Source of the DNA: Nitrospirota bacterium
GTDB lineage: Bacteria > Nitrospirota > Thermodesulfovibrionia > Thermodesulfovibrionales > UBA1546
Assembly (NCBI GenBank): GCA_009773185.1
Contig: WPIF01000003.1
Location: 76,760-140,759, forward strand
Length of the DNA stretch: 64,000 nucleotides
Direction: 5' to 3'
Below the pieces are notes generated by a model, which saw nothing but the letters and a program-made list of their open reading frames with translations, was not told the DNA's origin and did no database searches. Numbering within the stretch: position 1 is the stretch's first letter; each line of letters begins with the position of its first letter. Both the position numbers and the translations under genes were made by a program. Of this stretch, positions 10,586 to 14,274 are shown piece by piece.

Positions 10586-11506
10586 TTATTTTATAATTTT
10601 ACTAATTACTCCAAGAATAGGTTTGTGTCGCAATAAAACAAATAAAGTATAACCATTCCACCATGCTTGCCATTCAAAGGTATATTCACTCATACCACAA
10701 CGAATTAAGTCTTTTCCTTCAAGTATATTGATACCGTCATGAAACTTAATATCTCGCGCTGCGACCCATGGGTGCCCAGTTCCTATGCGAGATGGAAGTT
10801 CAATGTCTTCATATTTTTTTATAAATTTTTTTGAAGGTATTGTTTTCCAATGTCTCAGAAAATGATTACCATGCTCATCAGTAGAGTCTATCGGATAGTA
10901 TTGTGCAACTGCAATTGCCTCATCTTGTTCCTCAATATATCGCCAAATAGTTGCCTGTTTTGAAGCCCCATACATTTCAGAAAGGCGAAATACTGCGTGT
11001 AGAGAAGCAACATAATCAAGTGCATGAACCCTAAAACTTTTACCTTGGAATATAACTTCTGAAGCAAAAAAATTCGCCTCTCTATCAAAATCTGTTTCCA
11101 CATCTGGACTTAATGTGTAATCATCGTCTAGATATGTAGTGTTAATGTTATGCCATGGAATAATTTGATGCCCGAACTCATGAGCTTTCGGGAATAGATT
11201 TCTGCATGGATTGCCATTTTGGGGAATATAATTTATTCGGTCTCTCAAGTCTGCGATTCCTCTAACTTTTTGAATAGCATATTTAAAAGTTTCCTGTGCG
11301 GATTTGGTAAGGCGTGCGAAAAAACTTTCTTTTAATTCCTCAGGTGACTGAACCTCCATTATGGCGGCGGCCTTTACCAGATCATCAACCGGCGTTGGCA
11401 AAACTTCCATTGCACCTGCTCTTTTAATGGCTCTCTCTGCAATCTTTGATATCTCAGATTCACTATCTGGTCTGCAAATGAGTTTTACATTAGTTGATAA
11501 CTTCAA
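10586..11506 (-). CDS. ImmA/IrrE-family metallopeptidase
   Basis: A 306-residue protein with the zinc-peptidase motif HEFGH at residues 109-113 in the context FPKAHEFGHQIIPWHN, typical of ImmA/IrrE (COG2856) proteins that cleave XRE repressors. The start is TTG at 11506, immediately after the TAA of the upstream XRE gene, with AGGAG just inside that gene. The C-terminal 140 residues are a separate region rich in aromatic residues (WEWQAWWNG-like), possibly a sensor; I do not recognise it. Together with the XRE gene it forms a repressor/anti-repressor pair transcribed away from the ubiquitin-like module, and probably controls it. Direct peptidase activity on other targets is also possible. Confidence 0.85.
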   Translation of the reverse strand: MKLSTNVKLICRPDSESEISKIAERAIKRAGAMEVLPTPVDDLVKAAAIMEVQSPEELKESFFARLTKSAQETFKYAIQKVRGIADLRDRINYIPQNGNPCRNLFPKAHEFGHQIIPWHNINTTYLDDDYTLSPDVETDFDREANFFASEVIFQGKSFRVHALDYVASLHAVFRLSEMYGASKQATIWRYIEEQDEAIAVAQYYPIDSTDEHGNHFLRHWKTIPSKKFIKKYEDIELPSRIGTGHPWVAARDIKFHDGINILEGKDLIRCGMSEYTFEWQAWWNGYTLFVLLRHKPILGVISKIIK

Positions 11507-11872
11507 TTAGCGTGAACTCCTTTGCCTCTGTGAGCGTAAATATCCAATATAATGCGCAACTAGATTTTCTTCTTCATCAGTTAAGCCAGCACTCATCAAA
11601 GCCGCCTGCATTGTGCTAGGTTTTATTGTCTTTTCTCCCTTTTCGACCTTTGATTTCTTTAGATAACCTGCTGCTTCCATCAAAGAGGAATAGGGGATTT
11701 CATAATACTCGGCAAGTTTATACAAAATATTAGGCGACGGATTAGTTGCCTCTCCACGTTCCAATTGTGAAAGATAAGCATTTGATATCTCTGTGGCTTT
11801 TTCCACTTCACGCAGACTAACACCTTTGACTTTGCGAACGCTTTTTAGTTCTTCAGCCAATTTATTGCTCAT
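11507..11872 (-). CDS. XRE-family HTH repressor
   Basis: 121 residues. The N-terminal 70 residues are a Cro/CI-type helix-turn-helix (LAEELKSVRKVKGVSLREVE, then ISNAYLSQLERGEATNPSPN). The C-terminal part (LMSAGLTDEEENLVAHYIGY) is a short helical tail. A strong ribosome site, AAAGGAGG, precedes the ATG at 11872. The gene directly precedes the ImmA peptidase and is divergent from the ubiquitin-like genes. The palindrome at 11959-11974 is the best candidate for its operator. Role inferred: repressor of the divergent module, inactivated by the neighbouring peptidase. Confidence 0.88.
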   Translation of the reverse strand: MSNKLAEELKSVRKVKGVSLREVEKATEISNAYLSQLERGEATNPSPNILYKLAEYYEIPYSSLMEAAGYLKKSKVEKGEKTIKPSTMQAALMSAGLTDEEENLVAHYIGYLRSQRQRSSR

Positions 11873-11937: not shown

Positions 11938-11974
11938 TTGACAAATATAGTGCGCATTGCTTACTATAGTAAGC
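11938..11974 (+). promoter_or_regulatory. Promoter and 16-bp operator of the ubiquitin-like module
   Basis: TTGACA (11938-11943), an 18-bp spacer and TACTAT (11962-11967) form a near-consensus sigma-70 promoter. The -10 box is embedded in the perfect palindrome GCTTACTATAGTAAGC (11959-11974). A repressor bound there would block RNA polymerase. The XRE protein encoded 90 bp away is the obvious candidate. Confidence 0.7.
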
Positions 11975-12003: not shown

Positions 12004-12102
12004 ATGCGCATAGTAAAAGAAAGACAGTCGCTTACGAAAGGAGGTAAAAAGATATGGGCAAGAACAAGCCTTATGGCGACGGGCACAGGCAGGGGGCGGT
12101 AA
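12004..12102 (+). CDS. Possible 32-residue leader peptide
   Basis: ATG at 12004 is preceded by AAGGAGG at a spacing of 8. The frame gives MRIVKERQSLTKGGKKIWAR and ends at TAA 12100-12102, overlapping the next gene by 49 bp in another frame. The Lys-Gly-Gly-Lys stretch is encoded by the ribosome site of the following gene. Either translation of a basic leader peptide or a chance frame is possible; the strong ribosome site is the only support. Confidence 0.35.
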   Translation: MRIVKERQSLTKGGKKIWARTSLMATGTGRGR

Positions 12103-12236
12103 AAGACCGCTCTCAAGTGTATAACCCTAAAACAGACAACTGGACAAAGCGTAACACTGACGACGGTCGCTTTATTGATCAGAAGGCCGACAATGACCCC
12201 TTTAAAGGGGTCAGAAAAGAAAAAGGAGGTAGTTAG
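12054..12236 (+). CDS. Small charged protein at head of ubiquitin-like operon
   Basis: 60 residues, MGKNKPYGDGHRQGAVKDRS at the start and PFKGVRKEKGGS at the end. It is rich in Lys, Arg, Asp and Asn with no hydrophobic core, so it is probably disordered. AAAGGAGG stands ten bases before the ATG. I recall similar short proteins beside multiubiquitin/E2 genes in other bacteria, but I cannot name a function. The terminal Gly-Gly-Ser looks like a modifier tail, yet its codons are GGAGGTAGT, the ribosome site of the next gene (ATG 12239), so the tail may be incidental. Candidate roles: substrate, adaptor or modifier of the E1/E2-like proteins. Confidence 0.75.
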   Translation: MGKNKPYGDGHRQGAVKDRSQVYNPKTDNWTKRNTDDGRFIDQKADNDPFKGVRKEKGGS

Positions 12237-12238
12237 TT

Positions 12239-12880
12239 ATGGAAAAAGACAAAGGACATAAGGAAGACCATGTCACGATTCTTATCAATCAGGTGCCCCA
12301 CCACATCACGGCAACAACCATCACCGCTGATGAAATCAGAAAACTGGCTGGAGCAGACAATGATTATGAGGTCTGGAAAGTTGTCAAAGCCCCAGACCCT
12401 GAAGGACAACTCCCTATAGACGACATTCAGGTCAAAGGAAGCATTGAGGTGAAGAGTGGTGATAAGTTCAGAGTCGTACCTCCGGGAACTTTCGGTGCTG
12501 TGGCAGTAATGCCACAGCAGCTCACTCACGAAATCAACCACTTACGGACTGAGGGACACGAGATCGATGTTTATGAAGATTCAGGGTTGCTTCTGCTTGT
12601 CATGAAGGCATATCCTTTGCCGCGTGGTTACAACAAGGCAAGCACGAATCTGCTTCTCAAGATTCCTCTATCTTACCCGAACGGCAAGCTCGATATGTTT
12701 TGGACAGACCCTGACCTACGACTTCAGGAATCAAATGGGCAGGCCGCAACAACAGTCGAAAACATTCTCGATAGGCAGTGGCTACGTTTTTCTTGGCACC
12801 CTCAGAAATGGAATCCTGGGGCGAATAACCTCTTCACATTCCTTGAATTCGTTAATAGGAGGCTCATGCAATTAAAATGA
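12239..12880 (+). CDS. Multiubiquitin-type Ubl domain fused to cysteine-less E2-like domain
   Basis: 213 residues. Residues about 10-85 match the multiubiquitin domain pattern (HVTILINQVPHHITATTITA, then DEIRKLAG, ending DKFRVVPPGTFG). Residues about 90-213 match the prokaryotic E2/UBC family E pattern (YPLPRGYNKASTNLLLKIPL, MFWTDPDLRL, WLRFSWHPQKWNPGANNL). The whole protein contains no cysteine, so a thioester on the E2 fold is impossible. The Ubl has no C-terminal Gly-Gly because the E2 part follows directly. Its stop overlaps the start of the JAB-E1 gene (ATGA). Family assignment rests on recalled motifs. It may be a non-catalytic scaffold or use serine or threonine. Confidence 0.8.
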   Translation: MEKDKGHKEDHVTILINQVPHHITATTITADEIRKLAGADNDYEVWKVVKAPDPEGQLPIDDIQVKGSIEVKSGDKFRVVPPGTFGAVAVMPQQLTHEINHLRTEGHEIDVYEDSGLLLLVMKAYPLPRGYNKASTNLLLKIPLSYPNGKLDMFWTDPDLRLQESNGQAATTVENILDRQWLRFSWHPQKWNPGANNLFTFLEFVNRRLMQLK

Positions 12881-14274
12881 AAAACAAATATACAATCAGA
12901 ATTACGGAGCAAGACTTCAACCGTTGCCGAACCACCGTTCTGAGTGATCTTCCGAAAGAGGGCGCGGCTTTCTTGCTTGCTGGACGTAAAGTGATAGGGG
13001 CATCAGAGGAGCTTATTGTTAGAAGAATCGTTGATGTTCCTAAAAGCAAATATAGGATACAGGAAAATTACCATCTGGACATATCTCCAAAGGCCATCAA
13101 TGGCCTGATCTCATTATGTGAGCGTAATAACCTTGGTGTCATTCTATGCCACAGCCACCCAACAGATAGTTCTTATTCTCCATCAGATGACCATGGGGAG
13201 AAGAGAATCGCGGAAAGTATATGGAAGAATATACCCAATGTGCCGGTAGGCTCACTTCTCATATCGCCCACAAAAGTTCGTGCGAGAATATGGAAGCCTA
13301 AAGACGGATATAAGCCTGTTTCATCCGTCACTATACTTGGCCGACACATCAGGAAAATCTTTCTCAATGGGAGGGACCATAAAACCAATACACCGAGCGA
13401 TATATACGATAGACAAATATTGGCTTTTGGAAACAAGGGGCAAGCTATTCTCTCAAACGCTAAAATTGCAATAGTCGGCCTCGGTGGTACCGGCTCTCCT
13501 GTGGCCGAACAGCTTGTCAGGATGGGTGTCAAAGACATTGTACTCATAGACCCCGATGTTTTTGATCCGTCAAATATTACCCGTGTTTATGGAAGCACCT
13601 ATGAAGATGGCTATAAACGGTTTTTGCATACTTATCGTCTACGAAAGAAAAAAATCCCAAAAGTCGAGCTGATGTCAAAGCATCTAAAGAAAATTAACCC
13701 GGAAATATATATTCAGCCAATCCGAGACTCCGTCGTTAAAACGGACGCTGCTAAATTGCTTCTTGACCGTGATATTATCTTTTGCTGTACCGATGAACAC
13801 TGGGGAAGGTCTATCGTGAACCAAATAGCCTACCAGTATCTCATTCCTGTAATTGACATGGGAGTCCGCATTGATGCAAAAGATAAGAAAATACACGGTG
13901 CCTTCGGAGCTATTCATATACTAAGGCCAGATAAGCCATGCTTGTGGTGCTATGAGTTTCTCAATGCTGATCGAATCAGAGCTGAAAGTTTACCCGAACA
14001 CGAAAGAAAAAGTTTATTGCGTGAAGGTTATGTGCAAGATATCGATTCTAAAGCGCCTTCCGTAATATCATTGACAACTTCGATCTCCGGCCATGCTGTC
14101 ACCGCATTTCTGCAACTCATGACTGATTTTATGGGGCCTGCGGGGGATTTAGCCCGTCTGAACTATTTTATTATGGAAGGAACTGTGGGTAGGGGAAGTA
14201 GCGGCATCAAGGAGAGTTGTGTGTGTAAAAAAGTCAGAGGGTATGGAGACTTAATGGGGTTGCCAACACTTTAA
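12877..14274 (+). CDS. JAB metallopeptidase fused to ThiF/E1-like adenylyltransferase
   Basis: 465 residues. N-terminal JAB/MPN domain: Glu28, then H92-S-H94-P, Ser101 and Asp104 give the JAMM zinc set. C-terminal ThiF/E1 fold: nucleotide loop GLGGTGS at 201-207, DPDVFDPSNITR after it, and a zinc site from CLWC (355-358) and CVC (448-450). The crossover-loop region that holds the catalytic cysteine in MoeB/ThiF/E1 reads DIDSKAPSVISL and has none; the remaining cysteines of the E1 part are the zinc ligands and a CC pair near residues 303-304. So it should adenylate a Ubl C-terminus and deconjugate or process it, but not make the usual thioester. JAB-E1 fusions are known in bacterial Ub-like operons. 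Confidence 0.88.
   Translation: MKNKYTIRITEQDFNRCRTTVLSDLPKEGAAFLLAGRKVIGASEELIVRRIVDVPKSKYRIQENYHLDISPKAINGLISLCERNNLGVILCHSHPTDSSYSPSDDHGEKRIAESIWKNIPNVPVGSLLISPTKVRARIWKPKDGYKPVSSVTILGRHIRKIFLNGRDHKTNTPSDIYDRQILAFGNKGQAILSNAKIAIVGLGGTGSPVAEQLVRMGVKDIVLIDPDVFDPSNITRVYGSTYEDGYKRFLHTYRLRKKKIPKVELMSKHLKKINPEIYIQPIRDSVVKTDAAKLLLDRDIIFCCTDEHWGRSIVNQIAYQYLIPVIDMGVRIDAKDKKIHGAFGAIHILRPDKPCLWCYEFLNADRIRAESLPEHERKSLLREGYVQDIDSKAPSVISLTTSISGHAVTAFLQLMTDFMGPAGDLARLNYFIMEGTVGRGSSGIKESCVCKKVRGYGDLMGLPTL

Follow-up and report, generated by a model that had tools for sequence, protein, structure and literature searches.

Operons of type 6e, as described by Iyer et al. 2006 (PMC1779556), encode one to three ubiquitin-like (Ubl) repeats, a JAB-E1 fusion and a metal-binding protein, together with an E2/RWD-related domain in which the conserved cysteine is missing; this domain is fused to the Ubl in some species, and E2s of this type were predicted to be catalytically inactive. 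Structures of a relative exist for Citrobacter BubA, BubB and BubCD (PDB 9eae, 9eav, 9ea4 and 9ea8), namely a Ubl, a cysteine-less E2 of the Prok-E2_E family and a JAB-E1 fusion. They include a BubCD D104A mutant, and we read D104 as the JAMM aspartate. CapW, or CapH together with CapP, accompanies 219 of 544 Bub operons, and protection against phages by Bub has not been demonstrated according to the same paper (EMBO J 2026, PMC13373217). Another bacterial Ubl/E1/E2/JAB set, BilABCD, is tied to anti-phage defence, and its E2, BilB, carries the catalytic Cys138 in a CEHH motif (PMC11354881).

Here we describe a locus of this kind in a 64,000-nucleotide stretch of a Nitrospirota genome, hereafter the window. 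With type 6e it shares a Ubl (as polyUbl or, as here, solo), a cysteine-less E2/RWD-like domain that is sometimes fused to the Ubl and a JAB-E1 fusion, whereas the metal-binding C-x3-C...H-x2-C protein of that type, here read as DUF6527, is absent. Compared with Citrobacter Bub, it has a single Ubl domain, as against up to three, the Ubl is fused to the E2, the DUF6527 gene is missing and the E2 motif reads FSWH rather than WSRH. It is a Ubl/E1/E2/JAB set like BilABCD, but its E2 has neither a catalytic cysteine nor a CEHH motif. Eukaryotic UEV and RWD proteins likewise have an E2 fold without a catalytic cysteine; unlike them, the window family has an invariant Ser-x-His-Trp motif, and its operon includes an E1 and a JAB domain. 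In ubiquitin-ribosomal protein precursors, ubiquitin is made as an N-terminal fusion that is cut after its C-terminal Gly. The window protein resembles them in its N-terminal Ubl and in a predicted cut after the C-terminal Gly, and differs in that the fusion partner is an E2 of the same pathway and the Gly is single. The operon family, the absence of cysteine and the Ubl-E2 fusion have all been described earlier; what is new is that the window and its closest relatives are a modest Bub variant without DUF6527, an unusual minimal gene set.

Organisation of the locus

The central gene (12239..12880, + strand) is a single open reading frame of 213 residues without any cysteine, exactly at the coordinates and on the strand originally reported, and corresponds to a BubA-BubB fusion. 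Its Ubl domain (residues 1-86, ending ...VVPPGTFG86; 12239..12496, +) is delimited by a predicted beta-grasp fold, a Ubl profile across relatives and Foldseek matches. The codon of Gly86, which stand-alone Ubl ends in relatives mark as the conserved mature C-terminal Gly, lies at 12494..12496 (+). An AVAV linker follows at the Ubl/E2 junction (12497..12508, +), where AlphaFold2 confidence dips (block 81-90) and where cleavage is predicted between Gly86 and Ala87. The E2-like domain (residues 91-213; 12509..12877, +) begins at Met91, which aligns with the start of stand-alone E2s, and contains Ser185-Trp186-His187 (12791..12799, +), the invariant Ser-x-His motif, located in the loop that joins the last strand to the C-terminal helix. 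The gene overlaps by four bases with that of a 465-residue, BubCD-like JAB-E1 fusion (12877..14274, +).

Divergent from the operon lie a CapH-like HTH regulator (11507..11872, -; PADLOC capH 2.5e-11) and a CapP-like M78/IrrE peptidase with the motif HEFGH (10586..11506, -; PADLOC capP 7.8e-17; PDB CapP 7t5t 0.0036). An HTH repressor and an M78 protease with HExxH thus stand beside an immune operon as a CapH/CapP pair, and such a regulator is found upstream of many Bub operons. Between capH and the operon, a promoter-like TTGACA-N18-TACTAT carries a perfect 16-bp palindrome, GCTTACTATAGTAAGC, over its -10 element (11938..11974, +). This palindrome is a candidate CapH operator, that is, a putative repressor site; promoter-like matches in the region were no commoner than in shuffles (5 vs 4.8).

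The first gene of the transcription unit (12054..12236, +) encodes a 60-residue PADLOC PDC-S38 protein (PDLC05010 8e-32). This family occurs in 24 of 396 same-phylum genomes, two of which also carry Prok-E2_E; as the other 22 lack it, the PDC-S38 protein is not a core Bub part. The same distribution counts against a Pup-like modifier, a reading of this open reading frame (which ends in KGGS) that we rejected also because its GGS is encoded by the Shine-Dalgarno sequence AAGGAGGT of the Ubl-E2 gene and because the homologue in a second Nitrospirota genome, L024, stops at KEK. PDC-S38 also stands first in an operon of Multi_ubiq and DUF6791-ThiF genes that has an HTH/M78 pair (L064). On the other side of the window operon, the segment 14369-16446 (-) holds a dCTP deaminase-like gene (TIGR02274, 126.6 bits, over the cut-off), beside it a gene for a 491-residue protein without a Pfam family but with a HEIGH (HExxH) motif, and open reading frames of 166 and 68 residues; it is possibly a second defence cassette.

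Fold and family of the encoded proteins

The E2 half matches Pfam Prok-E2_E at 3.2e-23 (82 bits, cut-off 25), and the Ubl half matches Multi_ubiq weakly (0.0023; 18.5 bits, under the cut-off of 24.5). AlphaFold2, run on family alignments, models the full-length protein with an E2-like fold after a beta-grasp (1-86) (pLDDT 89), and the E2 alone with a pLDDT of 91 and a pTM of 0.85. Its top Foldseek match is BubB (TM 0.80); UbcH7, the UEV domain of Vps23, Rad6 and Cdc34 come next at a TM of about 0.5, with E-values that are not significant. The predicted fold is therefore E2-like, as had been proposed. The multiubiquitin pattern that had been read into the protein alongside the E2-like one did not hold up in the same way, as there is one Ubl domain rather than several.

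Sequence relatives of known structure point in the same direction: for the E2 they are only the Citrobacter BubB chains 9eae_C and 9eav_D, and for the JAB-E1 fusion the best match is Citrobacter BubCD (9ea4_A, 7e-38). The Ubl half is linked by profile search to BubA and other multi-ubiquitin structures, and Foldseek also matched it to multi-ubiquitin proteins and BubA. The locus combines a BubB-homologous, cysteine-less E2, a BubCD-homologous JAB-E1 fusion and an operon-encoded beta-grasp Ubl. Given these homologues, the BubB fold match and the divergent capH/capP-like pair, we assign the locus, by its sequence, to the Bub operons, Iyer type 6e.

Absence of cysteine and an invariant Ser-x-His motif

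Without a cysteine in its 213 residues, the Ubl-E2 protein cannot itself form a thioester, as the original prediction had stated. At the cysteine frequency of the window (0.75%), such an absence has a chance of about 0.2; it is unremarkable by composition, and the claim has to rest on homologues. These were collected from same-phylum whole genomes (Pfam profile), plasmid records (tblastn) and a scan of GTDB contigs, with search patterns that contained neither the Ser nor the His of Ser-x-His. None of the 52 distinct E2 domains has an aligned active cysteine; the domain thus departs from a canonical E2 (UBC), which has an active-site cysteine. A sequencing error or a lost cysteine is ruled out, since relatives also have no catalytic cysteine and L024, an independent Nitrospirota genome, has the same fused open reading frame (73% identical) with the same motif. 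Nor is the absence a peculiarity of this locus, as it had first appeared: it holds across the 52 relatives and is a property of the operon class known since the type 6e description of 2006 (PMC1779556). What deserves notice is a family without any conserved catalytic cysteine and with an invariant Ser-x-His instead.

Ser185, His187, Trp191 and Pro147 are invariant in 52 of 52 E2 domains, a haloarchaeal one included. In the distant same-phylum relatives L010 (1441-2082) and L011 (1408-1830), the Ser is kept and the His is replaced by Gln or Pro. Eleven of the 52 relatives have an E2 domain free of any cysteine, and among the columns with one only position 153 is common (29 Cys, 22 Met). We rejected Cys153 (DCFW) as a hidden nucleophile because of these 22 Met and because its strand is the one that comes after the YP motif. 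In the model, the last strand (179-184) leads to Ser185, which is followed by a helix (198-211); this loop would presumably be the place where E2s carry their cysteine. A profile alignment with a Cys-type bacterial E2 of Cap2 type did not place Ser185 on the canonical cysteine with significance.

A plasmid of the haloarchaeon Halorarius litoreus (L015, 3512-6341) carries an E2/JAB-E1 set of the same family whose Ser-x-His site reads LSWH; the Bub-like family thus extends to archaea. No relative turned up in searches of viral contigs or phage records.

The JAB-E1 partner

In the E1 half, the adenylation site is conserved (GxGGxG, Asn, Arg, Lys, Asp). At the position of the MoeB catalytic cysteine, for which the motif SCQEAGV of the MoeB-like protein of the same genome served as reference, there is no cysteine in 51 of 51 E1 sequences, most of which have [GP]Y[VIL] in this segment. 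The JAMM residues E28, H92, H94 and D104 are intact in the JAB half and conserved in relatives.

The C-terminus of the Ubl

As had been claimed, the Ubl has no free Gly-Gly at its C-terminus; this is no oddity, though, as the Ubls of the family end in a single Gly. Among relatives the Ubl occurs free, with a short tail or fused to the E2, with one conserved Gly throughout (Gly86 here). In 19 relatives the Ubl has a gene of its own that stops precisely at this Gly (for instance PKANFG*, PPATFG* and TTTEG*), one to five residues follow the Gly in about twenty, and the Ubl is fused to the E2 in about a dozen, which come from each of the three main clades in the E1 tree. Fusion and separation meet even within the clade of the window, where three loci are fused (the window, L024 and L025) and the other three have separate Ubl and E2 genes, divided at the same point, with Ubl ends PPGTFGEK* (L026), PPGTFGDY* (L027) and PPGTFGGTDGV* (L028). 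That the two parts are joined or separated at one and the same point, and that the Gly is retained, argues for proteolytic maturation after Gly86, and the Ubl-E2 fusion is best read as a putative precursor cut there. The obvious candidate for the maturing protease would be the JAB domain.

A clade without DUF6527

The E1 tree joins the window to a second Nitrospirota locus (L024), one from Wallbacteria (L025), two from Chloroflexota (L026 and L028) and one from Methylococcales (L027), in a six-member clade that has a support of 100/100 and covers at least four phyla. DUF6527, the metal-binding partner that is common in Bub operons but not strictly defining, is found in 35 of the 36 loci outside the clade with enough flank, and in none of the five clade members for which 3 kb or more of downstream sequence is available (hypergeometric 8e-6, a value that overstates independence because the loci are related). 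It is absent both downstream of the window operon and from the whole genome, which is estimated to be 100% complete. Next to the Methylococcales operon (L027, 2723-5874) lie a gene for a LexA-like repressor and a small, HNH-like open reading frame.

Discussion

We consider it somewhat more probable than not that the locus is, as a whole, a minimal Bub operon with a JAB-matured Ubl, cysteine-free transfer through a Ser185 oxyester and regulation by CapH/CapP. In such a model, a regulator of the CapH/CapP type, for which a response to DNA damage is expected, would control the operon, and the Ubl would be produced as an N-terminal fusion on its own E2. Cleavage after Gly86 by the JAB domain of JAB-E1 would then yield the E2 as a separate protein and a Ubl whose C-terminal Gly is free, and Gly86 would be adenylated by the E1 half. 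As a catalytic cysteine is absent from both the E1 and the E2, the Ubl would pass from the adenylate to the E2, likeliest onto the hydroxyl of Ser185 with the help of His187 to form an oxyester, and from Ser185 to a target amine; the JAB domain may also be able to remove the Ubl again. Three options had originally been left for the cysteine-less protein, a scaffold, a dead E2 or a Ser/Thr oxyester, and the invariance of Ser185-x-His187 favours the third. Ser185 as the acceptor of the Ubl is favoured but unproven, and its role could be structural. Oxyester-linked intermediates have reportedly been observed for Bub by Ye et al. in 2026. Against the oxyester speak the 2006 prediction of a catalytically inactive E2, the profile alignment with a Cys-type E2, which had no significance, and the modelled fold, which resembles eukaryotic E2s only at a TM of about 0.5.

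The main rival, in our judgement an unlikely but serious one, is that the E2-like domain acts as a non-covalent cofactor in the manner of UEV/RWD domains, which would dock on the E1 and position the target amine for a direct attack on the Ubl-adenylate, with Ser185 and His187 serving in binding or as general acid-base residues. This would agree with Iyer et al. 2006 (PMC1779556), who placed the domain among the inactive relatives of E2/RWD, and with Vps23 UEV being among the Foldseek matches; moreover, direct attack requires no relay, since the E1 has no catalytic cysteine to offer one. On the other hand, an invariant Ser-x-His before a helix exceeds what a docking domain needs. To our knowledge, UEVs have no Ser-x-His motif of such kind. 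The precursor reading would in turn be mistaken if the fusion stayed uncut, as a tethered Ubl-E2 unit that is either a scaffold or an acceptor on which free Ubl is built up. While the fused form does occur in about a dozen relatives across all three main E1 clades, fused, tailed and free forms alike keep the Gly and the same point of separation, and conjugation would lack a free Ubl if the fusion stayed whole, as the window genome has no second Ubl gene over the cut-off (in a search that also misses the window's own Ubl); we therefore hold this to be improbable. Least probable of all, with very little weight in our view, is a thioester on another cysteine, either Cys304 of the E1 or one of the E1 CxxC...CxC cysteines. 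Cys304 is nearly invariant (50 of 51 E1 sequences), but it is part of the CTD motif in the adenylation site, and the genome's own MoeB-like protein has a Ser in its place (GSDN). This motif is shared with MoeB/ThiF enzymes, in which, we assume, the cysteine is not the thioester residue. The CxxC...CxC cysteines look like zinc ligands and are absent from a whole subclade.

Returning to the oxyester reading, we tentatively suggest, at less than even confidence, that the clade of the window is a two-protein, cysteine-free machine, made of a Ubl-serine-E2 and a maturing and activating JAB-E1, which would have spread over Nitrospirota, Chloroflexota, Wallbacteria and a Methylococcales bacterium and would work without DUF6527. 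If the Ser is indeed the acceptor, Ubl tags would be transferred in this family without a cysteine in either the E1 or the E2, as opposed to the thioester relay of the textbooks. With two proteins and no DUF6527, the clade of the window is the smallest form encountered here, which would make it convenient for reconstitution.
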